The position numbers and the translations under genes are program-made. Positions 337 through 26,165 of a stretch of DNA of 32,284 nt are shown here, piece by piece; position 1 is the first letter of the stretch; the number at the start of each line of letters is the position of its first letter. Below the pieces are notes generated by a model. The model saw nothing but the letters and a program-made list of their open reading frames with translations. It was not told the DNA's origin and did no database searches. Source of the DNA: Spirochaetota bacterium (GTDB lineage Bacteria > Spirochaetota > UBA4802 > JAGODF01); the NCBI GenBank assembly GCA_017998375.1, contig JAGODF010000005.1, positions 1 through 32,284 on the forward strand, given 5' to 3'.

Positions 337-1143
337 TCAGCCGATCATCTCGCTTCCATCGGGAAAGACGATGTCGCCCGCATCCGCGAGTTTCAAGGCA
401 ATGTTGAGGATAACCTCCTGCGCCTGGATGACGGACTCTTTTTGCACGGGCCCCATGTAATCAACATCTTCCTTCAACAGCATGGCCGCCCTCTCCGACA
501 TGTTGCCGTAGATTTTCGAAGCAACCGCGCTGGTGCACCCCTTGAGGGCCAATCCCAGGCACTGTGAATCCACTTCCCTGAGAATCTTTTGAATTGACAC
601 ATCATGCAGTTCGGCGATTTTTTCAAAACTCAAGCTCCCGATTATAGCATTGACCGTTCCCGTTGAGCTTTGCATATCGGTTGCCGCGTCTGGGCACGGA
701 GCGTCCGCGACCGGGAATGAGTCGGTATCCCCCAGCTTTTTTCTCAGCTTCAACCAGTGCTTGTCCCAAAGGTCAATATCCTTCCCGAGAAAACAGGAAA
801 GCTTATCGGCAACTATCCGGGGATTGTCCCCGGCCTGGATGGCCACCACACCCTCCAGTATGAGAACATTATTCAGAAGGTTTGCCCCCTTGAGGCCGCT
901 CGATAGCATTCTTGTCCTGAGAACATCCCTCACGACGACCGGGTCCGTCCCATCGATTACCATTTGAAGGCCTTTTTTCAAAAAGGTATCTTTTAGATTG
1001 GCAAGGTCATCCTCAAGAACAAGAAGCCCCATCTTTCGTGATTTCTCAGCCAGCACTACGAGCGTTTCCATGAGCTTGATGGACTCTTTTTTCTTGTCCC
1101 TGGGGCACTGGAGTCTGTCGAAGAAGGCGATCTCGTAAGTCAT
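337..1143 (-). CDS. Soluble MotA-loop / FliG C-terminal domain fusion protein
   Basis: 268 aa, no signal peptide and no membrane segment. Residues about 20-80 match the cytoplasmic loop of the flagellar stator protein MotA: an SRKMGLLVLE stretch places R36 and E44 with the same eight-residue spacing as E. coli MotA R90 and E98, followed by FLKKG and VDGTDP. Residues about 94-119 match the MotA C-terminal tail (ILEGVVAIQAGDNPR). The two channel helices that normally lie between these parts are absent. After a linker, residues about 164-260 match the FliG C-terminal torque domain. K201, R218, E225 and D226 fall at the positions of E. coli FliG K264, R281, D288 and D289, while Q234 replaces R297. 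An AAGGAG site lies 7 bases before the ATG, and the TPR gene ends 11 bp upstream. The homology is seen directly. A role such as motor brake, decoy or assembly factor is inference. Confidence 0.85.
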   Translation of the reverse strand: MTYEIAFFDRLQCPRDKKKESIKLMETLVVLAEKSRKMGLLVLEDDLANLKDTFLKKGLQMVIDGTDPVVVRDVLRTRMLSSGLKGANLLNNVLILEGVVAIQAGDNPRIVADKLSCFLGKDIDLWDKHWLKLRKKLGDTDSFPVADAPCPDAATDMQSSTGTVNAIIGSLSFEKIAELHDVSIQKILREVDSQCLGLALKGCTSAVASKIYGNMSERAAMLLKEDVDYMGPVQKESVIQAQEVILNIALKLADAGDIVFPDGSEMIG

Positions 1144-1154
1144 AAAATTTCTCC

Positions 1155-1457
1155 TTAATATTTATCCCGCAGCACGCGTACCATGCCGCGGTATTCTTCG
1201 CTTTTCCGGACACTCTTGAGGTCCGCGTGGTTTTCCAGAAGAAAGAGATTGGGAAAACCCTTCCGTACGGATTTCTGCAACCACGAGACTGCTTCCCTGT
1301 TGTGCTTGCGGGCACCATGGAGACAGGCCATGTTGAAGTATGGCTCTGGATTCTCAGGCATTTTTTCTATCGCCTTCAGGTAGCATTGCCGTGCGCTGTC
1401 ATACTGCTTCAGGCGGGAATGCGCCAGTCCCACCGGGAGCGTTGACATCGGCGCCAT
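1155..1457 (-). CDS. TPR-repeat protein fragment, probably the 3' part of a frameshifted Ank-TPR gene
   Basis: 100 aa if started at the ATG at 1457. Residues about 9-75 form tetratricopeptide helices (GLAHSRLKQYDSARQCYLKAI, then PEPYFNMAC), and the C-terminal part resembles the usual end of TPR proteins (ADLKSVRKSEEYRGMV). There is no Shine-Dalgarno site before 1457, and an in-frame stop sits three bases upstream of that codon. The frame overlaps the end of the ankyrin gene (1399-1725) by 59 bases in a different frame. One extra base near 1440-1450 would explain the split: the ankyrin frame stays sensible up to GADVNA and this frame becomes sensible at LPVGLAHS. The MotA/FliG fusion starts 11 bp downstream, so the two are probably cotranscribed. 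Confidence 0.6.
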   Translation of the reverse strand: MAPMSTLPVGLAHSRLKQYDSARQCYLKAIEKMPENPEPYFNMACLHGARKHNREAVSWLQKSVRKGFPNLFLLENHADLKSVRKSEEYRGMVRVLRDKY

Positions 1458-1725
1458 TCTTTATATACAGATCGAACCACATCTGGTCCCCGCGTCCCAC
1501 TATCCCATGAAATGGGCTTGTTCCTCGATCGCTTCGGGCGTTGACATCCGCACCTTCCTTTATCGCATTTTTCAGGAGGTTGATGTTGATGGTTCTTTCG
1601 AAACCGCCAAATAAATCCAGGGCTTCCTCCAGGTCCTTGTCGGGATCGCCTGTCCCGGACGCGTGCGCAATTGAACAAAGACAGAGAAAGGCCATGATGA
1701 CGAATGATGACAGGATGGACTTCAA
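1399..1725 (-). CDS. Secreted ankyrin-repeat protein, apparently frameshifted at its 3' end
   Basis: I choose the TTG start at 1725 because GAGGAG lies 10 bases before it and it yields a clean signal peptide (MKSILSS, a hydrophobic core, cleavage after AHA). An ATG at 1776 would put about 17 charged residues in front. The mature part contains roughly two ankyrin repeats (LLKNAIKEGADVNARSDRGTSP; then LYIKNGADVNA). The last dozen residues do not resemble an ankyrin repeat, and the frame stops at 1399 just where a TPR reading frame takes over in another phase. It is therefore either a truncated protein or the 5' half of a broken Ank-TPR gene. It is first in a likely operon with the TPR fragment and the MotA/FliG fusion. 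Confidence 0.65.
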   Translation of the reverse strand: MKSILSSFVIMAFLCLCSIAHASGTGDPDKDLEEALDLFGGFERTININLLKNAIKEGADVNARSDRGTSPFHGIVGRGDQMWFDLYIKNGADVNAPGGTGAFPPEAV

Positions 1726-2186
1726 TGGTAGTGATCTCCTCAAGGTATGCTTGTTATTACACAAAAGCATATTCACAAAAGCATTTACAAGAAAATTCCA
1801 TAATAATATAGAAAATATTTATTAATTCAGGCAATGTGCTATTCAATAAATCATGAATTATTTCCTTGCGGGGCACGTTAATCGATATCGCAAACGATGA
1901 AGCGTTTAAAGATTTTTACAAGTGGCGTTCTTCAATGGTTCAGGATATTTTTGTCATACGATAATACTAACGATTTTAGTTAGTAGAAAATATTCATAAT
2001 ACATAAAATATTTTTGCAATTATAAACTCATTTTTATAATTTGCAGGAGATGCCCCTTGTTGCGACTATTATGCAATGTAAATTTTTCATTACAATTATT
2101 ACCATGCATAGTGGATAATGTGACGATCCATTGATGATTTACGACATAAAGCGATGCGTAAAATCCGAAAAAAGCTGGAGTGTGAC
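1726..2186. other. AT-rich divergent intergenic region
   Basis: About 460 bases between the minus-strand ankyrin gene and the plus-strand secreted protein. It is strongly AT-rich with short homopolymer runs. I see no convincing gene, tRNA, terminator or long repeat. It presumably holds the two outward-facing promoters, but no clean -35/-10 pair stands out. Confidence 0.4.
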
Positions 2187-2540
2187 ATGAAAAGAACCAT
2201 TATCGTACTGGCGCTGGTTGCCGTCCCGGCAATACTATTCGCGGCATCATCAGTGTATTTCTGCCCTCAGACGGGAGCCGTGGGTATCGCGTGGGGCGGA
2301 AACAACCTCGATCAGAGAGCATGGGGCGAATGTACACGATCGGGAGGTAGGGCGTGCAGTCGATTTATGTATCGCCCCGGGAGGGGATTTGGTAGTTTCG
2401 CGAAAGGGCAGAATTATCAGAGCCGCAGGTGGATTCAGGGGATTGCATGTGGATATCGTTCACAGGTCGAGGCGGACAACAGGGCGTTGTATGAATGTCG
2501 TAATGGGGGAGCTCAAAATTGCAATGTTCATCATCGATGA
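2187..2540 (+). CDS. Small secreted cysteine-rich protein, DUF4189-like
   Basis: 117 aa from the ATG at 2187, preceded by GGAG at a 6-base spacing. The start at 2154 would only add a charged extension before the signal peptide. Residues 1-19 form a classical signal peptide (MKRT, hydrophobic core, cleavage near LFAAS). The mature domain of about 97 residues carries a twice-repeated pattern: A-x-x-x-C-T-R-S-G-G-x-x-C and A-L-Y-E-C-R-N-G-G-x-x-x-C. It also has a G-x-G-I-A-W-G type opening. This layout resembles DUF4189 domains, which are small periplasmic or secreted disulfide-linked proteins of unknown role. The family call is by pattern only. It is isolated, with AT-rich flanks on both sides. 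Confidence 0.7.
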   Translation: MKRTIIVLALVAVPAILFAASSVYFCPQTGAVGIAWGGNNLDQRAWGECTRSGGRACSRFMYRPGRGFGSFAKGQNYQSRRWIQGIACGYRSQVEADNRALYECRNGGAQNCNVHHR

Positions 2541-2836
2541 CGCAACTAACCGAGCATAATACAACCAGATTGATCGGCCCCTGTCGACATTATTGCCCGG
2601 CAAGGTGCACGATCATAAATCGTAGTACTAAATTATTTCATATCCCGAATGGATTAAGAAATAATAATATATTCTTTTCTCAATGAATGGATTGTTTTGT
2701 TGAATAGTTGATAAATCCGATCATGTCCAGATAATACTCTACCACTACAACAATTGGTTAAACCATAATGCAGAACAACCGGTTAAAACATGGGTTTCAT
2801 TGTAAAGAGAGTGCTTTCTCAAAGAAAAATCGATAT

Positions 2837-4255
2837 ATGAAAAATTACCTTATACTATTGATAATGCTGGTCGCAGCAACCGGATGTGCCACTCTGCATG
2901 ACCATGTGAAAGAGGGTGATCTCACAAAGGTTAAAGCCGAACTATCAAAGAAAGATGCGAACGTAAATGCCAAAGATAGAGATGGCAATACTCCCTTACA
3001 TATAGCGATAGAGCAAAGGCAATACGATAATCTTGCAATAATCAAAATGCTTATTGCCAAAGGAGCGAATGTAAATATTATCAATAAGCATGGAGACACT
3101 CCCCTGCATGTGATTGCCTCAAAACGCGATGATGATTACCATGAAAAGTTAAAATTAATTTTATCGAAAAAAGCGAAAACAAATATTCAAAATGCCGATG
3201 GACATACTCCGTTACATTTGGCTCTCATGAGCCATAATTATTCAAGGAAGGCGATCAACCTTCTCATTGCAAAAAATTCGCCAATCAATGCAAGGGATAA
3301 CAATGGCAATACTCCTTTACATATAGCGGTAAAGTATATGCTTCACGGCCCAATGAAACTGCTTGTTTCAAAAGGGGCAAAATTGAACATTCAAAATAAT
3401 GAGGGCTATACTCCGTTAGATCTGGTTTCCGACCCAATATTTTTTACTGCAAATTCTGAAGAGGCGAAATATCTAATCTCCAAAGGCGCCGTGCATGGAC
3501 CAAATATAAAACATAAAATATGGGAACGAGATGAATATCAAAGACAGCAGGATGCCCGTGCTGATGAATATCGAAGACGGGATGCCCGTGCTCGAGAGGA
3601 GGAACGCCGATCGTTAAAAAGATTAATGGGACGCGTAGATGCTAATATCGCTCAAGCTCGACGCGAAGAGGCAAGAAATAAAAGCGAAGAAAATCGAAGA
3701 GAAAAAGCGAAAGGCGGAAGCTGCGTATCGGGCAATTGTATAAACGGCACGGGCACATATTACTATCCCAACGGAAGCACTTATGCGGGTCAATTCAGCG
3801 GCGGCTACAAACACGGGAATGGCGTGTTAAGCTGGCCGAATGGCGATAAATTCAGTGGCAGTTTTATCTCTGACACGAGGTATGAAGGATACTATTACTG
3901 GGCCAATGGTGTTTATTGCCGTCAGAGAAGCGGTGAGTGCATACCGGGAACCGAAGCTCGTGTTTCGGGAAGCGTACCCCGCGGTCGGGGCAGCAATTTA
4001 TGCAAAGCGGCATGCGCGACGGGCCAGCTGTCCTGCATCGTGCGATCTAAAGCATGGAAAAACATTGATATAAATGTAAAATGCTACAGGCAGGCGCAGG
4101 CCTGCCTTCAGAATTGTGACAATTGCGGAAGATATGAATGCGGTGAATCGGGCAACGGTGGAAGTTACATTGGGGGTTCCGACGGAGGAGGATCCGATGG
4201 TGGAGGTACCGATGATGAAGGATCAGGCGAAAGCGGAAGCATCGGAGGTTCGTGA
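2837..4255 (+). CDS. Lipoprotein with ankyrin repeats, charged helix and MORN repeats
   Basis: 472 aa. The ATG at 2837 is chosen because it gives a lipoprotein signal with lipobox A-T-G-C at Cys17; the frame is open from 2768, but that would bury the signal. After the signal come about five to six ankyrin repeats (residues about 25-225; recurring DGNTPLHIA and GANVN motifs). A very charged Arg/Glu-rich helix follows (about 230-295), likely a coiled coil. Next are about two to three MORN units (about 305-355; GTGTYYYPNGSTYAGQF and GNGVLSWPNGDKFSGSF), then a Cys-rich segment (about 358-445). The tail is Gly/Ser/Asp-rich low-complexity sequence. Ankyrin and MORN units are protein-binding repeats; the partner is unknown. 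It is probably anchored to a membrane facing the periplasm or surface. It converges on the adenylate cyclase gene. Confidence 0.85.
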   Translation: MKNYLILLIMLVAATGCATLHDHVKEGDLTKVKAELSKKDANVNAKDRDGNTPLHIAIEQRQYDNLAIIKMLIAKGANVNIINKHGDTPLHVIASKRDDDYHEKLKLILSKKAKTNIQNADGHTPLHLALMSHNYSRKAINLLIAKNSPINARDNNGNTPLHIAVKYMLHGPMKLLVSKGAKLNIQNNEGYTPLDLVSDPIFFTANSEEAKYLISKGAVHGPNIKHKIWERDEYQRQQDARADEYRRRDARAREEERRSLKRLMGRVDANIAQARREEARNKSEENRREKAKGGSCVSGNCINGTGTYYYPNGSTYAGQFSGGYKHGNGVLSWPNGDKFSGSFISDTRYEGYYYWANGVYCRQRSGECIPGTEARVSGSVPRGRGSNLCKAACATGQLSCIVRSKAWKNIDINVKCYRQAQACLQNCDNCGRYECGESGNGGSYIGGSDGGGSDGGGTDDEGSGESGSIGGS

Positions 4256-4287
4256 GATCTTCCCGGGTCGATAGAATTCAACGCGCT

Positions 4288-5928
4288 TTACTTCTCCTTG
4301 AATTCGTAATAGCCGTTCCATTTTGATATATTGAATGATCCTTCCTTCTCGGCTTGCATGAGCGCAAGGCATCGACCCTTGTAATAATCCACAAGTCCCT
4401 TGATTTGCGGATGCAGTTGAATGCTTTCGTAAATGGAAATTGCGGCTGGAAAATTTCCTTTAATGTATTCGCCCAGGGCTTTGTCGAGGATGCCTTGCGC
4501 ATCGTTTAATGCCGTTCTCGTCTTTTCATCCTTGTGATCATATACCTCATATATTTTCAGCGGGGAATTCTTCCCTTTGACCACGACATTGTCCAGCAAC
4601 AGCGTGTCATGGCGCGCCTTGAGGTGGCTCAATACGTCCTCGGATATGATGATGTCGGCCGTGTAGTACTTCGTCAGCGATTCAAGCCGGGACGCTATGT
4701 TCACCGGGTCGCCGATCACGGTGAAGTCCATCTTGGATTCCGATCCGATGTTGCCGGCGATGACCTGCCCGTAGTTGATGCCCACGCCGGACCTGACGGG
4801 CGGTTCCCCGTTGGCAATTCTTCTCTTGTTGTATTCATTCAGCCGTATCTGGATCTTGATGGCGGCGCTGACCGCGTTGTCCGGATCGACGAATCCCGCC
4901 ATGATGCAGTCCCCGATGAGCTTGTCGATTTCGCCCTGGTTGTTGTGGATCTCGATGTTCAGCTTGCCGAAATACTCGTTGAGAAAACGCACCACCGCCT
5001 CGGGATCGGCATTGTCGAACAGCGCGGTGAAGTTCCTGATGTCGCAGAAAAGGACGGCCATGTTGATTTTCTGGGGATGGCGCCGCGTCGGATCGATTCC
5101 ATCGTCCACCATCTGCGCGAGCGACTGCCTGGTGTATATCCTGAATATTTTCGACTTCCTTTCCGACTCGGAAAGCGCGCCCTTGAATCTCCCGGTCATC
5201 CGGTTGAATTCCTCGGCAAAATGTCCGATTTCATCCCGTGAAGACACCTGTATCCTGAAGTCGTAATCCCCTTCGCTTATCGTACGCACGCCTTCGGAAA
5301 GTTTCCGTATGGGATTGAGGATCGTGTTTGATAGCGCGATGCTCGCCCCGGTGGATAGCAGCAGGAATGCCATGAATACTGGCACAAGGAAAAGCAAAAG
5401 GCTTTTCGTCTGTTCCCTGATGATCATGTCTGAAAAACCGATGATTGCATATCCCACCTTGCCCATCATGGGATTGTTGATAATCCTGGAAAAATCGTAC
5501 ATCATTCCGCCGGTATCAAGAGGATCGGGATACTGCGCCCTCACGGTGTCGGCGGACTGGCGGTTTTCCAGGCTCCTTGCCACCCCATCCTGCAACTCCT
5601 GCGATATCACGCACTCCCGTCGCCTGTCGAAGCAGTATGCAATCCGATTATTTTTGTCGATTACGTATGCATACGTGACGTATCCGATTTTCTTCAGCTC
5701 TTCAATTTTTGAAACGATGGGCAGCTCGTCGATCCCGAGGTTGATTTGCGCCGTCTGCTCCAGGTGCATCGTTTCAAGGTTCATCAGCTGGAACACCTGC
5801 TCTTTCAGCAGCCGTTTTTCCCTCATGATGATGAAACCGGCGATCGTCGCGACGACCGCAACTATCAACAGGGTGGAATAGAGAATGATCCTGTGCCTTA
5901 TGCTGAAAAATCTTCCCCGGTCGGTCAT
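4288..5928 (-). CDS. Membrane adenylate cyclase, class III, with HAMP domain
   Basis: 546 aa. A TM helix at about 14-34 and a second at about 175-200 bracket an extracytoplasmic sensor region. A HAMP domain (about 200-255) follows, then a class III cyclase domain (about 287-465). The catalytic set looks complete. Metal-binding aspartates are D296 (LFCDIRNFT) and D340 (DKLIGD). The adenine-selecting positions are K336 and T403, and transition-state residues are N410 and R414 (VNIASR). K plus T/D favours ATP, so the product should be cAMP. The last 80 residues are helical and TPR-like, ending in a WNGYYEF motif. GAGG lies 8 bases before the ATG. The ligand is unknown; the periplasmic region contains two cysteines. 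Monocistronic, convergent with the ankyrin-MORN gene. Confidence 0.9.
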   Translation of the reverse strand: MTDRGRFFSIRHRIILYSTLLIVAVVATIAGFIIMREKRLLKEQVFQLMNLETMHLEQTAQINLGIDELPIVSKIEELKKIGYVTYAYVIDKNNRIAYCFDRRRECVISQELQDGVARSLENRQSADTVRAQYPDPLDTGGMMYDFSRIINNPMMGKVGYAIIGFSDMIIREQTKSLLLFLVPVFMAFLLLSTGASIALSNTILNPIRKLSEGVRTISEGDYDFRIQVSSRDEIGHFAEEFNRMTGRFKGALSESERKSKIFRIYTRQSLAQMVDDGIDPTRRHPQKINMAVLFCDIRNFTALFDNADPEAVVRFLNEYFGKLNIEIHNNQGEIDKLIGDCIMAGFVDPDNAVSAAIKIQIRLNEYNKRRIANGEPPVRSGVGINYGQVIAGNIGSESKMDFTVIGDPVNIASRLESLTKYYTADIIISEDVLSHLKARHDTLLLDNVVVKGKNSPLKIYEVYDHKDEKTRTALNDAQGILDKALGEYIKGNFPAAISIYESIQLHPQIKGLVDYYKGRCLALMQAEKEGSFNISKWNGYYEFKEK

Positions 5929-6052: not shown

Positions 6053-7183
6053 TCACCTGCCGGCGCCGGCATGACGCGTCCAGCTGCGGCGCAGTGACAT
6101 TTCCCTCCCGAACATGGGCATCCGCTGTCGATATATCAGCGCGCCGTCGTTGAGGTTGAGTATCTTCAGGGATCCGGCAACCTTCATGTGTATCCCCTGT
6201 TCCTTTGATCCCGGGATTTCCCTCACCGCGAGATTGTCTCCCTTCAACTCCCACCGGTACATCGACGTTCCCATCGCGTGAGTCATCTCAAGCCGTCCGT
6301 CCGCGTGAAACGTGAGGGTATCTTTTGAATATTCCATACCAGTTTCGCGCCATGTGCCGACTATGCGGACGGGGTATCCGCTCCGGTCCGCGTCTTCAAT
6401 GAGAAGGTCACCCAGAAACTCCCCCTCCTTTTCGCGCACAACCTGCTCCTGTACCCGCACAATTCCGTTCTTGTCGATGATGACCACGGCGGGGATGCCG
6501 GTTATGCCGAAATCGTTCATCTCCTTGCAGCCCTTCCGCGGTCCCTTGTCGATGGTCCCGGTGAGCGAGGGGAACGTCGCGCCGGCGTTCTTCATGAACT
6601 GGATGTCGGCATACCCGCCGCTGTCGATGTTGACGCCGAGCACCACGAGCCCGTCCCGGGCATATTTTTCATGGAGTTTCTGGGTCTCTCTCATCGCCTG
6701 TATGCATGGCGCACACCACGATGCCCAGAAGTCGAGCAGCACCACTTTGCCCTTGAGCCGTGACAGCGATATTTTCCTTCCGGGAGAATCGGCAACGGGC
6801 AGGTTGAAATCCGGCGCCGGATCGTTCACCCTTGTCCATGTGAACGATTTTTTTCCGGCGGAGTACGATACCTGCCTGTTGCCGGGCAGTACGATTTTCC
6901 TGTCGCCACCCGGCTGAATCCAGATGGTGCCCCCTCCTGCCGGGTATATCACTTTCTGGCCGTTGGTTAAAACGCGTGCCGTGGCGGACTTATTGCCGTG
7001 TCTGATGGTGTATGTTTTGCTGTCGCCATTGTCCTCATCGAGGAGCAGGCCCGCGGGATCGAAATCCAATGCCGCCATTTCTTCCGCGAGAATCCTGTCC
7101 GCTTCCGATGGCGCCGCGATCCCCGACACGGTGATGATTGGAAGAATAGCAAGAAAGATGAGGCACGCACTTGTTCGATACAT
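6053..7183 (-). CDS. TlpA-like thioredoxin-fold protein with extra N- and C-terminal domains
   Basis: 376 aa from the ATG at 7183, which has GGGAGG five bases upstream and opens a signal peptide (cleavage near GIAA, residue 24). An ORF start at 7219 lacks these. Residues about 30-118 form an unassigned beta-rich domain. Residues about 122-262 are a TlpA/ResA-type thioredoxin domain with catalytic C157-A-P-C160 in WASWCAPC and cis-Pro231 in GIPAVVIID. The last 105 residues look like a small beta-barrel or lipocalin-like domain (GTWRE, then LTFHADGRLEMT). TlpA proteins reduce or isomerise periplasmic disulfides, and that is the likely activity. No cytochrome c maturation genes are nearby, so the substrate is unknown. 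Confidence 0.85.
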   Translation of the reverse strand: MYRTSACLIFLAILPIITVSGIAAPSEADRILAEEMAALDFDPAGLLLDEDNGDSKTYTIRHGNKSATARVLTNGQKVIYPAGGGTIWIQPGGDRKIVLPGNRQVSYSAGKKSFTWTRVNDPAPDFNLPVADSPGRKISLSRLKGKVVLLDFWASWCAPCIQAMRETQKLHEKYARDGLVVLGVNIDSGGYADIQFMKNAGATFPSLTGTIDKGPRKGCKEMNDFGITGIPAVVIIDKNGIVRVQEQVVREKEGEFLGDLLIEDADRSGYPVRIVGTWRETGMEYSKDTLTFHADGRLEMTHAMGTSMYRWELKGDNLAVREIPGSKEQGIHMKVAGSLKILNLNDGALIYRQRMPMFGREMSLRRSWTRHAGAGR

Positions 7184-7437
7184 TATTCCTCCCGCTGAAC
7201 GCTTGGCGCTCTCCGGCATGATAGTCTGCGATAGCCGACTGTGTATTACCCGGTGCTCTGTGGTTCACGTCAATAATAATTGTATCCGCGCTGATTACTG
7301 TATACTATAAATAGCTTGCGCATATCAATGTATTAAAATATTTTGGGATGCAATAATAGAGCTGCAGTATGTCTATTTATGTCGCTCCGAAAACAATTCA
7401 TGATGGTCAAAACTGTCGCTATTTATGGAGATGCCCC

Positions 7438-7752
7438 ATGAAGAAGGTGATCATCCCGTTATTTGCATTAATGCTTTTCGTTATAACGCCTTGTCGGCTT
7501 ATGGGGCTCAACAGGCTTGCCGTCAGCCCCGACATGAGCAGGATAGCTGTCGTAATGCCGGGAAAGAACTGCGTTCGCGTGTTCGACCTCAGAGGAAAGA
7601 AAATCCGTGACTTGGAGGGGCACGAAGGTGCTGTAATGAGCCTTGACTTCAGCACAGATGGAAAAAGAGATGGAGCAATACATTTTATCAGCGCGGATTC
7701 GGAAAAAGTCCTTTCATCTTGCGAGAAAGATTACACTCGGGGGCGCATGTGA
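7438..7752 (+). CDS. Truncated secreted WD40-repeat protein
   Basis: 104 aa from the ATG at 7438 (GGAG 8 bases upstream). It has a signal peptide (MKKVIIPLFALMLFVI). About one and a half WD40 blades follow: LAVSPDMSRIAVVMPG, VRVFDLRGKKIRDLEGHEGAV, and LDFSTDG. After that the WD40 pattern stops and about 28 unrelated residues lead to a TGA at 7750. Real WD40 propellers need several blades; the intact paralogue at 9227-10183 has about seven. So this is probably the 5' remnant of a longer gene, perhaps cut by a deletion. Its stop overlaps the GTG start of the next gene in a GTGA arrangement, so translating this remnant may still matter for expression of the downstream gene. Confidence 0.55.
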   Translation: MKKVIIPLFALMLFVITPCRLMGLNRLAVSPDMSRIAVVMPGKNCVRVFDLRGKKIRDLEGHEGAVMSLDFSTDGKRDGAIHFISADSEKVLSSCEKDYTRGRM

Positions 7753-9131
7753 GAACCAAAGCAAGAATACTGAATCATTTCCTTGTGGTTGCCTGTATCA
7801 CGGCATCGCTTATCGCCGTTCAATGCGCCAGATCGAGACGCATTTCGGCGCTCATGAATGAAGGGGATGCCCACTTCGACGCGGGGCGGTATGAACAGGC
7901 GCTGGCGTCGTACAATAAGGCGGTAGAATCGGACCCCGAAAACAAGAAGGCGATGGCAAAACAGGACGAGGCTAGAAACAGGCTCCGCGAGTGGGCTGTT
8001 TCCATCGCACTGGAAGCTAAAAGATCGGAAGACTCCGGTTTTCCCGCAACCGCGTCAATCCTGTATAAGAAATCATCGATAATTACCGGCGATACCGAGC
8101 ACAAGTCCAAATCCCAGTCGCTCTGGGAAGCGGTAAGGAATCAGCTGGCCTTCAAGGTGGATTTCAAGGCAAGAAGGGGAAGCGTTCTTGAAGATATCAA
8201 TCTATTTTATTTTAATAACCGTTTTGATCAAGCCGTTTCGAGGCTGCCGGGAAATCCCTGGATAGCGGTGAGCAGGAATTCCGCCGCTCCCCATGTCACC
8301 TTCGCCGTCGAGCTCGGGAGACCCGTCACGGCCAGGAAACAGGAGGTGATCAACAGGAGCACAAGGTATGTTTCCGGAACATCCGAGGTCCCCAACGAGA
8401 GATACGGAGCCCTCCAGGGCCAGCTTGACCAGGAAAAGAAAGCCTATGCCGACAGCAAGTGGGAGGAGGACAAGTACCAGAAGGAAGTCTCATACTTCTA
8501 TGCGCAATCCCTGCAGACCGGGCCCGGCGGTAAGAAAAATCCGTACGTCGAGGAGAAGTACAGGGAATCATTGAGAAATCTCGGCTACATCCGGGAGAGG
8601 CGCAACAGCATGCAGAACAATATAAACAGCCTCGGATACCAGCTTGCGAATACGCCCCGGACATCGAGGATCAACCAGTACAGCAACTACGCCTATGCTG
8701 ACACGAATCACACCATCAGCGTTTCGGCACCAGTTCAGATCGTCGCGCATCGCGATGGAATGTCGTATAATTATTTCATCGACAGGCTGGTCATCGAGCA
8801 CAGCGATTGTACCCATCCGGCACATCCCGTTGCCGGCATTAATGAAGATCCGCTTGTTCTTCCCGATGAAGAAGCGATCGGGGATGAACTCATAAACGAC
8901 GTGATAACCAGAACGAAGAGCGCGATGTCCAGGGAATTCTTAAAGCATCAGGAGCAGATCCGAAACAAGGCGAACGGTGAAATATCACCGGAGAAAAAAA
9001 TGGAATCTCTCATTGCCTGCGCGATGCTCGATCCGCAGAGCATAGAGGATGCGGAGTGGCAGCCAATCATAAGCCAGCTTGTTGTAAAAGTGGGCAATGG
9101 GGGAACTCTCGGCCCCGAACTCCTGAAGTGA
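7749..9131 (+). CDS. Envelope-anchored TPR protein of unknown function
   Basis: 460 aa from the GTG at 7749, which overlaps the stop of the WD40 remnant (GTGA) and has a G-rich stretch just upstream. An ATG at 7719 is possible but lacks a ribosome site. Residues 1-28 form a hydrophobic signal ending in IAVQC, a poor lipobox (Gln at -1), so lipidation is uncertain. Residues about 35-75 form a TPR pair (GDAHFDAGRYEQALASYNKAVESDPEN). The middle contains a conserved-looking beta region and a Gln/Lys/Glu-rich helical stretch (about 205-310). The C-terminal 150 residues resemble no family I can name. The reading frame is long and uniform. A structural or envelope role is inferred only from the signal and the TPR. 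Confidence 0.8.
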   Translation: MRTKARILNHFLVVACITASLIAVQCARSRRISALMNEGDAHFDAGRYEQALASYNKAVESDPENKKAMAKQDEARNRLREWAVSIALEAKRSEDSGFPATASILYKKSSIITGDTEHKSKSQSLWEAVRNQLAFKVDFKARRGSVLEDINLFYFNNRFDQAVSRLPGNPWIAVSRNSAAPHVTFAVELGRPVTARKQEVINRSTRYVSGTSEVPNERYGALQGQLDQEKKAYADSKWEEDKYQKEVSYFYAQSLQTGPGGKKNPYVEEKYRESLRNLGYIRERRNSMQNNINSLGYQLANTPRTSRINQYSNYAYADTNHTISVSAPVQIVAHRDGMSYNYFIDRLVIEHSDCTHPAHPVAGINEDPLVLPDEEAIGDELINDVITRTKSAMSREFLKHQEQIRNKANGEISPEKKMESLIACAMLDPQSIEDAEWQPIISQLVVKVGNGGTLGPELLK

Positions 9132-9202
9132 GGCATTCCATTGTTCACAACGATCGATGCGTCATGGAGCGGGATAAATGCAGGGAATTAATCGGCTGCG
9201 CT

Positions 9203-9214
9203 CTGTTCGAACAG
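9203..9214. repeat. 12-bp perfect palindrome between convergent genes
   Basis: CTGTTCGAACAG is a perfect inverted repeat located between the TPR gene stop (9131) and the end of the WD40 gene (9227). It could be a DNA-binding site or a chance palindrome. It has no T-tract and no long stem, so it is not a convincing terminator. Confidence 0.3.
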
Positions 9215-9226
9215 TAGATTATTCCA

Positions 9227-10183
9227 TTATTCATCCGTCTGTCGGAATATGCTCACGACGCGCAGAAGGCTGCCGTCGGATTTCCATACATACAGCTTTC
9301 CGGAATAGGTCCCGGCGGCCAGGTATTTACCGTCGGGGCTGAAGGCGCCACCCATCACGGAATCATGCCCGTGCCGCACCTTGAAGTTCCTCAGGAGCTT
9401 TCCTTCCAGGTTGAAGAGCCTGACTTCTCCGGCGGCCGCCACGAGTATCGAGTTGCCGGGGCCGGCTTTAATGTCGTGTATTTCTCCCGTCCCTGCGATT
9501 ATTTCACGGAAGGACGATCCATCGCTATTCCTTACCATCAGCCTACCATCTCCCGTGCTGATAACGATGGCTTTACCGTCGGAGACGTAACAGACTTTCC
9601 TGACGGATGTTCCGATGCCGGAGTATGAATTGATTAACTTTCCTCGCGCATCGTGGACCGTGAAAACGTCCGGCTCGATAACCATCGCGACACAATCGCC
9701 GTCGGGCGACAAGGCCGCGTCGGCGATAGTTTTACCGCCCGCGGGGAATCGGCACACAAGTGAGTTCTTCTTGTTCCAGAGGCAGACCGATTGGGGGGTC
9801 GCTGTGGCCGTCAGCGCCCCTCCCCTGCTGAAAGAGATCCTGATCACGCCATCGCACTCGCCACCCTGAGGATCTTTGATCGTTTTTATTATGCTGCCGC
9901 TTGGCTTGCGAAAGATGATCCTTCCGTCAGATAGACCAGTAACGATAGAACCGCCTTTCGAGAAGGTGACACATCCGGTCATTGTCGTGTCATGGCTGAC
10001 GACTCTGTGTGTTTTCCCGAGATTGTCCGACAGCATGAAATCGCTGGTTCCCGCGAGGAACGCGATACTCTTTCCATCGGGACTGAAGGCGATGCTCCGG
10101 ATCTCGTTGTAATCATTTCCCGGCAGGGTGCCCGATAATGCCGCGGATAGTACAACCGTGGTTACTATTACTTTTATTTTCAT
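9227..10183 (-). CDS. Secreted WD40 beta-propeller protein
   Basis: 318 aa from the ATG at 10183, which begins a signal peptide (MKIKVIVTTVVLSAALSGTLPG). AGGGA lies about 10 bases upstream. The frame stays open upstream to 10489, but that extension has no signal and odd composition. The mature protein contains about seven WD40/propeller blades, each with an SPDG-type turn and a hydrophobic strand: IRSIAFSPDGKSIAFLAG near the start, ALSPDGDCVAM in the middle, and GAFSPDGKYLAAGTYSGKLYVWKSDG near the end. This count is consistent with a closed seven-bladed propeller. Such proteins are binding scaffolds; no catalytic motif is seen. It is related to the truncated WD40 gene at 7438-7752. Confidence 0.85.
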   Translation of the reverse strand: MKIKVIVTTVVLSAALSGTLPGNDYNEIRSIAFSPDGKSIAFLAGTSDFMLSDNLGKTHRVVSHDTTMTGCVTFSKGGSIVTGLSDGRIIFRKPSGSIIKTIKDPQGGECDGVIRISFSRGGALTATATPQSVCLWNKKNSLVCRFPAGGKTIADAALSPDGDCVAMVIEPDVFTVHDARGKLINSYSGIGTSVRKVCYVSDGKAIVISTGDGRLMVRNSDGSSFREIIAGTGEIHDIKAGPGNSILVAAAGEVRLFNLEGKLLRNFKVRHGHDSVMGGAFSPDGKYLAAGTYSGKLYVWKSDGSLLRVVSIFRQTDE

Positions 10184-10522
10184 CCCGACTAATTCCCTGA
10201 AATCGATGATCGTTTGACAATTAAATACAACCATAGATTCAGTGGTTGATGATGCATGTGTCAATGAATTATTAATCATCCGCGCCACGGGCACGTTCGT
10301 CCTGCGCGAGACACGCCTCCTTGAGGGCGCCCTGTCAGCCGCGCCGGTCGCCGCCATCGCGCTCGTCTTCCCGACTCGCTCTATTTGCACAAGCGCTATG
10401 CCGTATGGAAAGCGATGTGCGCTTCCACAACGCCGGGCACCCATCTGCGCGATGCTTCCGAACCATGTATCGAGCCCCGTGAAACTCACAAAAATCGTTA
10501 CTTTACCGAAATGAAATTATAA

Positions 10523-10551
10523 TTGACTTTCTTCAACTGTTTCGCATAATA
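10523..10551 (+). promoter_or_regulatory. Putative sigma70-type promoter
   Basis: TTGACT, a 17-base spacer, then ATAATA (or CATAAT with 16). It points toward dispersed repeat copy A and the small secreted protein gene at 10821. If used, its transcript would carry the repeat in a leader of about 260 bases. Confidence 0.4.
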
Positions 10552-10614
10552 TTTGAAACGTTCAGGATATATGTATTCATGGGGGCGCGAAAGCACCGCG
10601 ATTTTGGGCGGTTA

Positions 10615-10739
10615 AATTTATGGGGCCCCGTCAAGTGGCTTATTTTCGTAAATAGGCCTGTTATCCCGAAGTGCGCTTTGAATAAAAGCGCTCATGCAGG
10701 CAGGAGCCGCACTCTCGGGTGGGAGCAGCATCCCGGATA
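10615..10739 (+). repeat. Dispersed repeat, copy A
   Basis: One of three related elements of about 120 bp in this window (others at 11323 and 13802). It shares a 51-bp stretch (10626-10676) that is identical to copy C. After that the copies share a weaker tail with blocks resembling GGAACC and CTCCGGGAT. The first 62 bases align with no gaps in all three copies. There is no terminal inverted repeat and no transposase. Copy A lies upstream of the small secreted protein gene. Confidence 0.7.
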
Positions 10740-10820
10740 TTACTAGCAAATTATTTATTGTTTTTAATAAATAAATATTTTTTTTATTCTACAACTAAAA
10801 TAATTTTAAAGGTGAAGCAT

Positions 10821-11186
10821 GTGAATAAAAAATTATTTTCCATCTTACTGGTGACGGCAGTTTGCGCGGCTGTATGCATTTCCCTGATGAAAAATGAATC
10901 ATACTCCCAAGCCAACTGTGTTCGCGTTGATAAGAATTATGTTCACACACATTTCGGCCAGGCAGAACAGTTATGGTTAACGAATGTATGCAATCGGCCC
11001 ATTTTAATAACAACTCGTTTTAGCTCTAACATGTGTTGTAGTGTTTCTGGCTACTCGGGGTCCCTAATGACTCACTACCTTATCCCCAATGAAAGAAGGC
11101 ATTTTGTCCATGTACAAAAATCTATCGGTTGTGGACCACAGCAAAGATGCCAATATAATTACAATTATACAGTACAAATGCGATAG
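10821..11186 (+). CDS. Small secreted cysteine-containing protein, unrecognised
   Basis: 121 aa from the GTG at 10821, which has AAGGTG seven bases upstream. The upstream ATG at 10719 would add 34 residues in front of the signal peptide and reads through repeat copy A. Residues 1-30 are a signal peptide (VNKKLFSILLVTAVCAAVCIS). The mature part of about 90 residues has six cysteines, including a C-C pair (SSNMCCSVSG) and a C-G-P-Q-Q-R-C segment, with many aromatic residues and a YNYNY stretch near the end. It looks like a small disulfide-stabilised beta domain. I recognise no family. A decayed duplicate of its 5' end lies 50 bp downstream (11236-11315), so this gene has been tandemly duplicated at least once. 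Confidence 0.65.
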   Translation: MNKKLFSILLVTAVCAAVCISLMKNESYSQANCVRVDKNYVHTHFGQAEQLWLTNVCNRPILITTRFSSNMCCSVSGYSGSLMTHYLIPNERRHFVHVQKSIGCGPQQRCQYNYNYTVQMR

Positions 11187-11235
11187 TTAAAGCCATATTG
11201 CTAAATTTTTCTTATTCTCAAGTAAAGAGGCAGTT

Positions 11236-11315
11236 ATTAATAAATAAATTTTTTCCATCTTATCGGTAACCGCTATTTGCATGACTATATTCATTTCCTT
11301 GAGGAAAAATGAATC
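11236..11315 (+). pseudogene. Decayed duplicate of the 5' end of the gene at 10821
   Basis: This stretch aligns with 10821-10904 almost without gaps. Both share blocks such as TTTTCCATCTTA and GAAAAATGAATC, and both encode a signal-peptide-like segment (FSILSVTAICMTIFISL here). The start codon is lost and a TAA follows two codons later. The same phase then stays open through repeat copy B to a TGA at 11443-11445, so the duplicate runs directly into the repeat. Confidence 0.7.
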
Positions 11316-11322
11316 GCGCTTT

Positions 11323-11442
11323 AATTTCAAGGGCTCCGGCCAAGGGGCTTTTTTCGGGGCCAGCGCTGTTTTCACGAAGTGCGCTTCTTATAACAGAGCT
11401 TATTTCAGCAGGAACCTCGATCCGGGATTGGAGCATCTTCCT
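11323..11442 (+). repeat. Dispersed repeat, copy B (most diverged)
   Basis: Related to copies A and C. The first 62 bases align without gaps, from AATTTCAAG to AAGTGCGC, and there is similarity in the tail (AACAGAGC, GGAACC, CCGGGAT). It is directly fused to the decayed signal-peptide duplicate and lies in the leader region of the large lipoprotein gene. Confidence 0.6.
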
Positions 11443-11527
11443 TGATGTTTAGTTTAATCAATTGAATTGAATGAGTTGGGAAGATTCATTCATTGCTGTG
11501 ATTATCCCAAGTGTGAGGACACAACAC

Positions 11528-13597
11528 ATGAAAAACCATGCCACCATCTTCCGCCGCATCATGAGGTTAACCGCCCTTCTGCTCGTTCCCGGGCTCTTCG
11601 CCTTTACCGCCTGCTTCGAGGACGGAGGCGGCAACGACACCAATCCCGAGTCGTATAATTCCTCACTTTTCGTGAGTAAAAGCGAAATCGGCCCCGGCGC
11701 GGAGTGCGCCAACGGGGGCGTCAGGATCGACATGGGGTTCGACGTGAACCGGAACAATGTCCTTGATCCGGAGGAGGTCACCAACACCGAGTATGTCTGC
11801 CACGGTGAGGACGCCTCCTCCCATCCTTTTGTGGTGTACACCTGGCCCACGCCGAACGAAACCGACGTGACCAGGAGCGCGAAGGTGAGCGTGGTCTTCA
11901 ATACGGAGATGGACCCCGCCACGGTGACGGAAAGCACCCTGACCGTGTCAGACGAGTACGGCGACCCCGTGAGCGGCACCGTGGAGTACAATGATATTAC
12001 CGCCGTCTTCACGCCGGACAACCGCCTTGCGCCAGGCATGAAGTACACCGTGACAGCCTTCCCTGCCATGGAAAACGTCATGGGGACCGCATTGGGATAC
12101 GAGCACAAGGTGTTCTTCCATACTTTCGATAAATACACCGTGGCCTACCACGCAAATGGCGCCACTGAAGGGACAGTCCCCGCTGAGGCGTACTACGCCG
12201 ACGGAAGCGGCGTGAACGTCGCCGGGAACACCGGCAGTCTAGCGAAGACCGGCTCACCCTTCATGGGATGGTGCACCGCTTCCGACGGCACAGGGACCTG
12301 CTATGATGGTGGCGAACCCATCACCATCAGCTCCGCCGACGTGGACCTCTACGCCCGCTGGGGGCACTCCATCTCGTTCAACAAAAATGACGACGGCGCC
12401 ACGGGCACCATGGACCCGCAAACGATGGCCACCGGTGCCAAAGAAAACCTGAGCGCCTGTACTTTTACCAAGCCGGGCTGGCATTTCACCGGATGGTCCA
12501 CCACGCCGGGCGGTGAGGTGGAGTACGAGGACGGGGCGGAGTTCAGCATGGGAACTGGGAACGTAGTGCTGTATGCGAAGTGGATTGATGATCCCTTCAC
12601 TTTATTCACCACTCCTGGGCAGCAGGTCACCATAACCGTGGGCACTGTTCAATTTAAGATGAGATATGCCAACAACCAGGCGAGCATCATCTTTCCTTTT
12701 TCGCCAAATATTGAAACGCCTGTCGACGGTAACCCGGCAACATTGACGAGAAAGTTTTTCATGAGCGAAACGCAGGTGACCAACGCTCTCATGGCTGAGG
12801 TACTGCAGTGGGCGTATGACAACGGTAAATTCAGTACAACAGTAGGCGACCACAACGGCCTTGACAGCACAACGGCAAAATATGGCGCCCAGCAGCTTCT
12901 TGATCTTGATGATTCTTATATGAAAATCAATTATTCAGCAGGCAGTTTCACGGTAGATTCCGGGTTTGAAGACCACCCGGTGGTGAGTGTAACTTGGTAC
13001 GGAGCCATCATGTTCTGCAACTGGCTGACCGAGATGCGTGACGGGAACACAACAAATGTGGTGTACACCGGTATTGACACAACATGGGTCGACACAGAGA
13101 CAGTTGAAAACGCCGACAGAAACGGATATCGTCTGCCCTCGAGCCAGGAGTGGGAATACTCGGCAAGGTATATTGGTACAACCCTGCCGATAGGAGGCAA
13201 TCTTTCCACTGAGTATGTAGCGCAGGGTGTAAATTCAGGACATGCGACCCTGACAGCGGGGTACTACTGGACGCCTGCGGATTACGCGAGCGGAGCGATA
13301 AGAGACTATAATAACGTGACAGATACCAGAGCTGTAGCTTGGTACTCAGGAGACCCTGACATGGGTGGAAGTGACACACTGATGCCGGTAGCGCAGAAAA
13401 CAGCGAACCATCTTGGTCTCTACGACATGAGCGGCAATGTCTGGGAGTGGTGCTTTGATTTGATCGGTTCTTGCCGCGTGTATCGGGGCGGCAGCTGGAA
13501 CAACACTGCCATCCCCATGCAGGTTGGTTACTTGTTCTACAACCCCCCGTCTAGCGAGTACATCGTCATAGGCTTCCGCTTTGCGAGGACTCAGTAA
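11528..13597 (+). CDS. Large lipoprotein with Ig-like, InlB-type repeat and formylglycine-generating-enzyme-like domains
   Basis: 689 aa from the ATG at 11528 (GAGG 9 bases upstream); the frame is open from 11471. The lipobox is F-T-A-C at Cys29. Domains in order: a DUF7151-like Asp/Asn-rich module (about 45-90; GFDVNRNNVLDPEEV), a bacterial Ig-like Big_5/SbsA-type domain (about 92-188), and two InlB/Listeria-Bacteroides repeats (about 190-275 and 276-345; FTGWSTTPGG and LYAKW). A sulfatase-modifying-factor (FGE) fold follows (about 365-689; YRLPSSQEWEYSARY, MSGNVWEWCFD, YRGGSW, GFRFART). The C-terminal FGE cysteine pair is missing: nothing between YRGGSW and GFRFART is Cys. So this domain is probably a binding module, as in many surface proteins. 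It is likely displayed on the outer surface. A strong terminator follows. Confidence 0.88.
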   Translation: MKNHATIFRRIMRLTALLLVPGLFAFTACFEDGGGNDTNPESYNSSLFVSKSEIGPGAECANGGVRIDMGFDVNRNNVLDPEEVTNTEYVCHGEDASSHPFVVYTWPTPNETDVTRSAKVSVVFNTEMDPATVTESTLTVSDEYGDPVSGTVEYNDITAVFTPDNRLAPGMKYTVTAFPAMENVMGTALGYEHKVFFHTFDKYTVAYHANGATEGTVPAEAYYADGSGVNVAGNTGSLAKTGSPFMGWCTASDGTGTCYDGGEPITISSADVDLYARWGHSISFNKNDDGATGTMDPQTMATGAKENLSACTFTKPGWHFTGWSTTPGGEVEYEDGAEFSMGTGNVVLYAKWIDDPFTLFTTPGQQVTITVGTVQFKMRYANNQASIIFPFSPNIETPVDGNPATLTRKFFMSETQVTNALMAEVLQWAYDNGKFSTTVGDHNGLDSTTAKYGAQQLLDLDDSYMKINYSAGSFTVDSGFEDHPVVSVTWYGAIMFCNWLTEMRDGNTTNVVYTGIDTTWVDTETVENADRNGYRLPSSQEWEYSARYIGTTLPIGGNLSTEYVAQGVNSGHATLTAGYYWTPADYASGAIRDYNNVTDTRAVAWYSGDPDMGGSDTLMPVAQKTANHLGLYDMSGNVWEWCFDLIGSCRVYRGGSWNNTAIPMQVGYLFYNPPSSEYIVIGFRFARTQ

Positions 13598-13640
13598 CCT
13601 TTTGGATTTTTAATTTTTTACCTTTTTTTCTTCGGGGAGT

Positions 13641-13672
13641 CCAGAGGGGTTTCCCCTCTGGATGATTTTTTT
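13641..13672 (+). terminator. Rho-independent terminator of the large lipoprotein gene
   Basis: A perfect 9-bp stem (CCAGAGGGG / CCCCTCTGG) with a TTT loop is followed after four bases by a run of seven Ts. It lies 43 bp after the stop codon of the lipoprotein gene. Confidence 0.9.
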
Positions 13673-13801
13673 GGAAAATGAACCATTGTGTATGAGATAA
13701 TAACAATACTCTTCAATTCGATGACAAAATCCTTCAACACGGATCATTTGAATTCATTCTGCATCAATAAAAAGGTGTTTTTCACGAAAATTGAGTTTTT
13801 A

Positions 13802-19008: not shown

Positions 19009-19995
19009 ATGGAATACTACATCATCTTCCTCATTTTCCTCGCCCTGGTGTTCGACTTCATCAACGGGTTCCACGACTCGGCGAACTCCATCGCAACGAT
19101 AGTGTCGACGAGGGTGCTCTCCCCCAAGTACGCCGTCATCTGGGCGGCGTTTTTCAACTTCATCGCGTTCCTCTTCTTCGGGCTCCACGTGGCGGGCACC
19201 ATAGGCCGGGGGATCATCGACATCACCATCATGGACAGCGAGATAATACTGGCCACGCTCGCGGGCGCCATAGTCTGGGACCTGATCACCTGGTACTTCG
19301 GCCTGCCCACCAGCTCGTCGCACGCGCTCATGGGCGGGCTCATCGGCGCCGCCCTGGTCAAGGCGGGCACCGCCTCCCTGGTCTGGTCGGGGATAGGGAA
19401 GACCGTGCTCTTCATCTTCGTCTCCCCGCTCATGGGCCTCGCCCTGGGACTGGGCATAGGCACCATCGTCTACCGCGCCTTCAGGAATTCCGTTCCCTCG
19501 CAGGTGGACCACATATTCCGGAAGGGTCAGCTCGTGTCCGCCGCGCTCTACAGCCTGGGGCACGGCGGCAACGACGCGCAGAAGACCATGGGGATCATCG
19601 CCGGGCTCCTGTTCAGCTCCGGCATGCTGCAGGGCGCGTTCCACGTGCCGCTCTGGGTGGTCCTGTCCTGCCACGGCGCCATCGCCCTGGGAACCATGTT
19701 CGGCGGCTGGCGCATCGTCAAGACCATGGGCCAGAAGGTCGCGAAGCTGAAACCGGTGGACGGCTTCTGCGCCGAAACCAGCGCCGCCACGACGCTCTTC
19801 ATCGCGTCGTTCTTCGGGATACCCGTGAGCACCACCCACACCATCACCGGTGCCATCATGGGCGTGGGCTCGCTCCGGCGCCTCACCGCGGTCCGCTGGG
19901 GCGTCGCGGGGCAGATCGTCTGGGCCTGGGTGCTCACGATCCCCTGCTCGGCGCTCATTTCCGCGGCGGTGTATTTCATCGCCGCGCGAATGTAG
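19009..19995 (+). CDS. pitA: Low-affinity inorganic phosphate transporter (PiT family)
   Basis: 328 aa integral membrane protein with about 10 hydrophobic segments. The two duplicated PHO4 signatures are clear: near the N-terminus DFINGFHDSANSIATIVSTR, and in the second half YSLGHGGNDAQKTMGIIAG. A third landmark, GIPVSTTHTITGAIMGVG, mirrors the earlier LPTSSSHALMGGLIG. These transporters carry metal-phosphate with protons or sodium. The ATG at 19009 starts directly at the first TM helix; the ribosome site is weak. It lies upstream of pstC in the same direction, and a Pho-box-like array precedes it, so expression probably rises under phosphate limitation. There is no phoU-like pit accessory gene beside it. 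Confidence 0.93.
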   Translation: MEYYIIFLIFLALVFDFINGFHDSANSIATIVSTRVLSPKYAVIWAAFFNFIAFLFFGLHVAGTIGRGIIDITIMDSEIILATLAGAIVWDLITWYFGLPTSSSHALMGGLIGAALVKAGTASLVWSGIGKTVLFIFVSPLMGLALGLGIGTIVYRAFRNSVPSQVDHIFRKGQLVSAALYSLGHGGNDAQKTMGIIAGLLFSSGMLQGAFHVPLWVVLSCHGAIALGTMFGGWRIVKTMGQKVAKLKPVDGFCAETSAATTLFIASFFGIPVSTTHTITGAIMGVGSLRRLTAVRWGVAGQIVWAWVLTIPCSALISAAVYFIAARM

Positions 19996-20047
19996 CAGGA
20001 ACCGGGCCGATTATCCGCATGCCATCATGACCGTACGCCTCGATTTT

Positions 20048-20097
20048 TTGATAATTACCACATCATATCTTTATAATTTTTTCATATGGTATAAGTA
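20048..20097 (+). promoter_or_regulatory. Candidate PhoB operator (Pho box) of pstC-pstA
   Basis: Hexamers at 11-bp steps: TTGATA, CACATC, TTTATA, TTCATA and TAAGTA, the last about 30 bp before the GTG start of pstC. The TTTATA / TTCATA core matches the array upstream of pstB. The second unit is a poor match. Confidence 0.6.
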
Positions 20098-20130
20098 TCA
20101 TTAATCGATACGGAACGAGGAGCGTATCCG

Positions 20131-21024
20131 GTGGCGAAAAAAAAACACAACAGCATCATCTACGATTCCATCATCAGGAAGCTTTTCCTGGTCATAGGGT
20201 TCTCCAGCATCGGGGTCCTGTTCCTGATCATGTTCTTCCTTTTCCGGGAGGGAATCCCCATCTTCGGGATGATCGGCGTGGGCGACTTCCTCCTGGGCAC
20301 CAGCTGGTATCCCACCGGGACGCCTCCCCGTTTCGGCGCCTTTCCCCTCATCATCGCCTCGGTCCTGACGACGCTCATGGCATCCGCCATCGCGGTACCG
20401 CTGAGCCTTTCCATAGCGGTCTACCTTTCGCAGATCGCGAAACCCTTCGTCAGGGAAATTGTCAAGCCGGTGATCGAGCTCATTGCGTCCATACCGTCGG
20501 TCATAGTTGGATTTTTCGGCATGGTGGTCCTGGCGCCCGCGCTGCAGCAGTATTTCAACGTCGACACGGGGCTGAACATGCTGAACGCGTCCCTCATGCT
20601 CGCCTTCATGGCCATACCGACCATCGCGAGCATCTCGGAGGACGCAATCTCGTCGGTTCCGGACTCGCTGGTGGAGGCGTCGTACGCCCTGGGGGCGAAC
20701 CGCTGGCAGACGATCTATCATATCATCCTCCCCGCCGCCCTCTCCGGGATATGGACGGCGATCATCCTCGGCATCTCCAGGGTGATAGGCGAGACCATGG
20801 TGGTTCTCATGGTCGCGGGCGGCGCGGCGATGCTCCCCAACTCGATATTCTCACCTGTCCGCCCCCTCACCGCGAACATCGCCGCCGAGATGGCGGAGGC
20901 GCCGCACCGGGGGGACCATTACTTCGCGCTCTTCGCCATCGGTATAATTCTTTTTATCATAACGCTGATTTTCAACCTGCTTGCGAGCTATCTTTCGGAG
21001 AAATACAAGTTCAAGTATAATTGA
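20131..21024 (+). CDS. pstC: Phosphate ABC transporter permease PstC
   Basis: 297 aa from the GTG at 20131 (GAGGAG eight bases upstream). Six TM helices are expected. The first spans about 17-37 (LFLVIGFSSIGVLFLIMFFLF). The permease loop with the EAA-type motif lies near residue 185-205 (EASYALGANRWQTIYHIILP), where the ATPase PstB docks. The PstC-typical segment SVIVGFFGMVVLAP and GETMVVLMVAGGAA follow the family. With PstA it forms the inner-membrane channel for phosphate delivered by PstS. It is followed by pstA 53 bp downstream and is expected to be induced with it by PhoB. Confidence 0.94.
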   Translation: MAKKKHNSIIYDSIIRKLFLVIGFSSIGVLFLIMFFLFREGIPIFGMIGVGDFLLGTSWYPTGTPPRFGAFPLIIASVLTTLMASAIAVPLSLSIAVYLSQIAKPFVREIVKPVIELIASIPSVIVGFFGMVVLAPALQQYFNVDTGLNMLNASLMLAFMAIPTIASISEDAISSVPDSLVEASYALGANRWQTIYHIILPAALSGIWTAIILGISRVIGETMVVLMVAGGAAMLPNSIFSPVRPLTANIAAEMAEAPHRGDHYFALFAIGIILFIITLIFNLLASYLSEKYKFKYN

Positions 21025-21077
21025 CGGATGGATTCCCGCACCTGTGCTTAACATAGTAGAAGCATGCGTGGGAATAA

Positions 21078-21941: not shown

Positions 21942-21988
21942 CGTCTCCGCGTGAGGCACATCGGAAAGAAGTGCGGTGAAGTTGCCTG

Positions 21989-23746: not shown

Positions 23747-23748
23747 GG

Positions 23749-24444: not shown

Positions 24445-24453
24445 GGCGGCGGC

Positions 24454-25107: not shown

Positions 25108-25117
25108 GCCCTTCTCC

Positions 25118-25891: not shown

Positions 25892-25984
25892 GATCCGGTA
25901 TCCGCCGAAATTCCTTGTGCTATGATTCCCCGATCCGCGGGGAGAGACCTTATATCACTCGTCATAGATAAAGAATATTCACGT

Positions 25985-26023
25985 CTTGAAGTTTTAATAA
26001 TGAAAATATAAAGTAATTATGAA
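25985..26023 (-). promoter_or_regulatory. Candidate PhoB operator (Pho box) of the pstB operon
   Basis: On the minus strand, hexamers at 11-bp steps: TTCATA, TTTATA, ATTATT and TTCAAG, about 95 bp before the pstB start. The TTCATA and TTTATA units are the same two found upstream of pstC in reverse order. Confidence 0.55.
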
Positions 26024-26049
26024 GATCGCCCCGAAATACGGTTATTCAC

Positions 26050-26088: not shown

Positions 26089-26165
26089 CACCGGCTCCGT
26101 ATCTATTCCCCGAACGGTTTGAATGCAATCCGTTCGTGAACCACAATAACAAGGGGGTCTCAAAT

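Follow-up and report, generated by a model that had tools for sequence, protein, structure and literature searches.

Can one soluble protein carry both faces of the stator-rotor contact of the flagellar motor and, if so, what might it do there? The question is raised by a gene of a Spirochaetota bacterium at positions 337-1143 of the window, by which we mean the whole stretch of 32,284 nucleotides analysed here (contig JAGODF010000005.1). These coordinates, given in the preliminary description, are correct; the open reading frame and its translation place the gene on the minus strand and yield 268 amino acids. A plus-strand reading of the same positions is interrupted by stops and was ruled out. 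The choice of start is backed by a Shine-Dalgarno sequence, TTAAGGAGAAATTTTATG, immediately 5' of it and by an N-terminus common to the relatives, in which M, Y and C13 are invariant. The locus comprises the following features, where TM stands for transmembrane helix.

Positions 337 to 1143, minus strand: fusion gene, encoding a TM-less MotA cytoplasmic domain, a disordered linker and FliG_C (open reading frame, translation, Shine-Dalgarno sequence, full-length relatives).
Positions 907 to 1107, minus strand: MotA cytoplasmic loop (TM2-TM3 loop), residues 13-79, carrying R36 and E44 (NCBIfam, PDB matches, alignments).
Positions 778 to 888, minus strand: MotA C-terminal tail, LEGVVAIQAGDNPRIVADKL, residues 86-122 (alignments to MotA).
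Positions 628 to 735, minus strand: linker, residues 137-172, mostly predicted disordered (AlphaFold2 model).
Positions 367 to 630, minus strand: FliG_C torque domain, residues 172-259, carrying K201, R218, E225 and D226 (Pfam, PDB 1qc7, Foldseek, alignment).
Positions 1144 to 1160, minus strand: ribosome-binding site AAGGAG 5' of the ATG (sequence read).
Positions 1155 to 1776, minus strand: upstream open reading frames, TPR (1155-1457) and ankyrin-like (1399-1776), 11 bases from the fusion start (open reading frame list, sequence read).

The N-terminal half derives from the cytoplasmic parts of MotA. Pfam names no domain there, FliG_C being its sole match in the protein; NCBIfam models of MotP, MotA and PomA match residues about 16-79 and a second stretch (E 8.1e-20 to 1e-13), and solved MotA structures match as well (8ucs at 2.9e-16, 6ysf at 3.1e-16). 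The assignment to MotA, which the preliminary description had staked on there being significant matches, thus stands. Residues 13-77 of the fusion align with residues 66-130 of the MotA encoded in the same genome, and residues 89-119 with MotA 215-245. In the global alignment MotA jumps from residue 138 to 212 between fusion residues 85 and 86, and TM3-TM4 is therefore absent from the fusion: about 73 residues comprising helices 3 and 4 are gone, residues 80-85 standing in place of the MotA stretch that bears them. TM1 and TM2 are likewise missing, residues 1-48 and 139-211 of the genome's own MotA having no counterpart. Indeed, TM3 and TM4 are present in all aligned MotA proteins and in none of the fusions. 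The NCBIfam models, the solved structures and the alignment with the own MotA thus bear out the earlier proposal of a MotA loop and tail without channel helices. The charged residues had been matched properly too, since multiple alignment equates R36 with R90 and E44 with E98 of E. coli K-12 MotA, both charges being kept. The MotA of flagellar stators (8ucs_C, 6ysf) therefore has the loop and the C-terminal tail, including R90 and E98, in common with the fusion, but possesses four TM helices that form a pentameric channel with MotB, whereas the fusion is devoid of any TM helix, of the channel, of the MotB contact and of a membrane anchor. Moreover, the MotA part of the fusion branches separately from MotA proteins of the same order.

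The C-terminal half is FliG_C. Pfam PF01706 matches residues 172-259 (E 6.1e-27), as does PDB 1QC7 (2.4e-22), in agreement with the earlier assignment of residues about 164-260. Alignment with E. coli K-12 FliG places K201, R218, E225 and D226 at K264, R281, D288 and D289, the pairing that had been proposed; R297 is replaced by Q234 and its charge is lost, so that four of the five FliG charges checked are kept. This domain, with equivalents of K264, R281, D288 and D289, is shared with FliG proteins (1qc7, 8ucs_H, 8umd), which differ from the fusion by their FliG_N and FliG_M domains and by R297. Pfam found neither FliG_N nor FliG_M in the fusion, and the NCBIfam FliG model TIGR00207 reached 86.8 bits (cut-off 226.7) over its positions 240-333 of 338. 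Because these two domains are missing, the fusion cannot replace FliG in the ring. On sequence grounds it belongs with neither protein: the helices of a MotA are lacking, and so are the N and M domains of a FliG. The AlphaFold2 model, built on an alignment of 11 rows, has a pLDDT of 82, with both helical domains mostly above 90 and residues 141-169 below 50, and all modelled helices fall in the loop-plus-tail and FliG_C regions. Its pTM is low (0.54), the relative placing of the two halves not being predicted. Foldseek matched the model to 1qc7_B (TMt 0.93, rmsd 1.1 over 88 columns) and 8ucs_H (TMt 0.92), and also to MotA chains at probability 1.00 but with weaker E-values (5e-4 and above).

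The preliminary description had advised checking the same genome for full-length MotA and FliG. Both are encoded there, FliG in two versions, which are 54% (over residues 172-262) and 31% identical to the fusion. Together with the spirochaete sheath protein FlaA, which is also encoded, they indicate a spirochaete, presumably with periplasmic flagella. PilZ proteins are encoded separately in this genome.

We propose, with a probability of about 0.4, that the fusion is a brake, clutch or buffer that competes at the MotA-FliG interface or bridges it. According to a review (PMC6680979), the stator-rotor contact pairs MotA Arg90 with FliG Asp289 and MotA Glu98 with FliG Arg281, and these contacts act in stator assembly and torque. 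Their counterparts in the fusion are the pairs R36-D226 and E44-R218, and both halves match the solved MotAB-FliG complex 8UCS (MotA half 2.9e-16, FliG half 2.7e-20). The MotA-derived half would offer a FliG-binding face (R36, E44) and the FliG_C half a MotA-binding face (K201, R218, E225, D226), both on one soluble cytoplasmic chain with a flexible tether of ∼35 residues. The FliG_C half would bind stator MotA and the MotA half rotor FliG_C; the protein would thus rival or bridge the real contact and, in the motor of the periplasmic flagella, serve as brake, clutch or buffer. When unbound, the halves may cap each other, either within one molecule or head to tail, and stay inactive until opened by a signal or by parts of the motor. 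A precedent is YcgR, reported (PMC11800159) as a soluble protein that binds MotA as well as FliG and slows the motor. By analogy with the c-di-GMP brake or clutch proteins YcgR and MotI, the fusion would likewise touch MotA and FliG as a soluble protein; unlike them, it contains no PilZ domain (Pfam) or known ligand site and is built from the motor's own surfaces. We favour this competition because the faces of both partners are present, the charges are kept, the pairing recurs and YcgR provides a precedent. The motor role is less secure because FliG_C is eroded or not recognisable in some relatives and the gene neighbours are unrelated. Besides, MotA binds FliG as a membrane pentamer, and a soluble copy may bind weakly, which counts against this proposal.

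How far the architecture extends was addressed by a survey of 393 Spirochaetota genomes with an alignment (A3) spanning the TM3-TM4 junction as query; one further genome, G048, came from a separate search. An initial close-relative scan of genome contigs had returned ordinary MotA and FliG genes and no fusions. The wider search, which the preliminary description had recommended, did find fusions, and the TM-less MotA domain occurs in about 20 of the 393 genomes. Full-length relatives are present in two genomes of the same order (G004 and G041; 55 and 46% identity over the alignment), and more distant ones (31-35%) in G011 (two copies), G020 and G116. G016 has the two halves on two contig ends, which are probably one gene. 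The MotA-FliG_C order is also found in G193, G221, G132 and G374, and the reverse order in G057 and in G216, where the protein (805 aa) includes leucine-rich repeats and two MotA domains. The two domains are separate adjoining genes in G273, G308 and G244, and the MotA domain stands without a recognisable FliG_C in G202, G105 and G048. Two MotA cytoplasmic modules are seen in each of G048 and G116. Two of these layouts are detailed here.

G048, contig C1, positions 8017 to 9858, minus strand: protein of 613 aa that has two TM-less MotA-like modules side by side and lacks FliG_C.
G273, contig C3, positions 1932 to 5712, minus strand: gene row of FliG_C (224 aa), PcfJ-like (568 aa), TM-less MotA (151 aa) and FliG_M plus FliG_C (243 aa).

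The recurrence of MotA and FliG_C together, in both orders or as neighbours, suggests that the two domains act on each other. All 20 genomes carrying the TM-less MotA module also have FliG_N, which is weak support for a motor role since 347 of the 393 sampled genomes have it (chance about 0.08). Both faces on one molecule with a long tether, and the presence of MotA and FliG in the same genomes, would also suit a buffer that caps unassembled MotA faces and free FliG_C against premature stator-rotor pairing. This we find improbable, as a module so sporadic (about 20 of 393 genomes, though nearly all have the motor) argues against a general assembly need.

The same survey bears on whether the pair works at the motor at all. 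In the main rival to our proposal, MotA-cyt and FliG_C would be a reused docking pair, binding each other or sister copies in an adaptor of a non-motor pathway. The partners do differ, from leucine-rich repeats (G216) and a PcfJ-like gene (G273) to doubled MotA-cyt (G048, G116), and contact positions of the FliG_C half have eroded in several relatives (one G011 copy, G011a, and those of G020 and G116). We found no conserved gene neighbourhood: neighbours vary between genomes, are unrelated to motility, and flagellar genes are not near. Broader reuse of flagellar domains is further suggested by a soluble FlhA-FliG_C fusion.

G004, contig C31, positions 7967 to 9931, minus strand: protein of 654 aa with a zinc ribbon, the FlhA cytoplasmic part (PF00771, positions 314-654) and FliG_C.

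However, few polar columns are kept as well as those of the rotor-facing charge pair, a nearly complete charge set persists in the window copy and its nearest relatives, and the module was not found in the listed flagella-less f49 genomes. We therefore regard a docking role outside the motor as possible but doubtful. As separate observations, G004 has both the shuffled FlhA-FliG_C protein and a MotA-FliG_C fusion, and G024, G009 and G035 encode stand-alone FliG_C proteins (92-113 aa) that contain nothing else of FliG.

One lineage points to the switch complex. In G202, SQDEIDALL-like peptides, reminiscent of the EIDALL of FliM, occur in three TM-less MotA proteins and in two neighbours.

G202, contig C12, positions 6085 to 13681: peptides ISQDEIDALLGG, SADEIDELL, SDEEIDALLGG, TQDEIDSLL and SQDEIDQLL, with an adjoining PARG-like gene.

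Of ten regex matches among 256,534 residues, with duplicated loci counted, nine fall within this cluster, as if members imitated the switch complex in soluble form and titrated chemotaxis signals (CheY-P). The regex finds no such peptide in the window protein or in the other members scanned, and the likeness to the FliM N-terminus is short, which makes switch signalling a very unlikely role. Returning to the stator-rotor contact, a tentative and rather doubtful extension of our proposal is that Spirochaetota possess a hitherto undescribed family of soluble proteins recombining motor surfaces (TM-less MotA, FliG_C and, in one lineage, FliM-like peptides). These would be self-complementary stator-rotor regulators, brakes or clutches made from copies of the gear teeth and inherited apart from the motor genes.

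Conservation was compared across 22 TM-less MotA domains. The R90 and E98 columns reach 0.86 and 0.82, the mean over MotA-conserved columns being 0.74, and other conserved polar columns are mostly lost (K114 0.36, Q60 0.32, N107 0.45). The excess is only modest, and the ARREGLLALE motif may owe its conservation to folding. In a tree of the MotA part, most TM-less domains separate from ordinary MotA, with long branches remaining, and the reverse-order copy of G057 groups among MotA proteins. A tree constrained to hold all TM-less domains in one group was not rejected (p-AU 0.376). One that joins the window group to MotA of its own order was marginally rejected (p-AU 0.047, for a group named after seeing the tree), and a recent fusion from the genome's own motA is thereby marginally disfavoured. 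The FliG_C tree gives no resolution of how the FliG_C halves are related. From these sequence comparisons, the TM-less MotA module looks old; one origin is compatible with p-AU 0.376 but less than secure, given the long branches and the place of the G057 copy. A decaying or accidental joining of motA and fliG fragments would account for the patchy distribution and the eroded FliG_C of some lineages. Nevertheless, full-length relatives 31-55% identical exist in different families with open frames and a common start and junction, the Shine-Dalgarno sequence is good and the TM-less domains look like an old group (the own-order grouping above). Conservation largely refutes a functionless accident, which we consider hardly credible.

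The preliminary description knew of no described protein with this build. In this it was half right: we found no published description of a MotA-FliG_C build in a search outside subscription journals, which is not proof of absence, but an NCBIfam model already matches residues 9-210. NF047717 (LIC10244 family PerRA/PerRB upregulated protein, Leptospira) aligns at its positions 8-201 of 252 (E 9.7e-14), a stretch that takes in the TM-less MotA part, the linker and the beginning of FliG_C, and has a length similar to that of the fusion. The score of 51.4 bits against a curated cut-off of 475 does not make the fusion a member by the NCBI rule, and the last 50 model positions are unaligned; no genome of the Spirochaetota sample reaches this cut-off. 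The family is named by locus tag and regulation and carries no domain description or function. LIC10244 is listed as a hypothetical protein, at 6.61-fold, in a perRA/perRB double mutant table (PMC8638967), and is absent from the passages of PMC11800159 that count FliG and MotA copies in L. interrogans. The fusion could point to a function for a Leptospira family named only by its locus tag, and it shows that the cytoplasmic domain of MotA does not need the channel to exist as a module of its own. YcgR and other known motor brakes are built from domains unrelated to the motor. By carrying both motor surfaces, a protein such as this would naturally compete for the torque contact and could be a small soluble model of it.

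Finally, the ribosome-binding site of the fusion shares bases with the stop codon of the TPR gene that precedes it, which suggests co-transcription, and the TPR and ankyrin-like frames are probably on one transcript with it; they are not conserved as its neighbours in relatives. The ankyrin-like frame (1399-1776, minus strand) likely encodes a signal peptide. It overlaps the TPR frame (1155-1457) in a different reading frame, and both (1155-1776, minus strand) are possibly a single frameshifted gene. As had been noted before, the fusion is not beside other flagellar genes: a Pfam scan of 30 open reading frames of the window revealed none. A phage origin was rejected, viral contigs containing no relative, and so was a role in a defence system, the protein having no PADLOC match. 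Elsewhere in the window, positions 19009-28170 hold phosphate uptake and signalling genes (PHO4 transporter, ABC permeases, ATPase, binding protein, PhoU, sensor kinase and response regulator), together with a possible phosphate porin.
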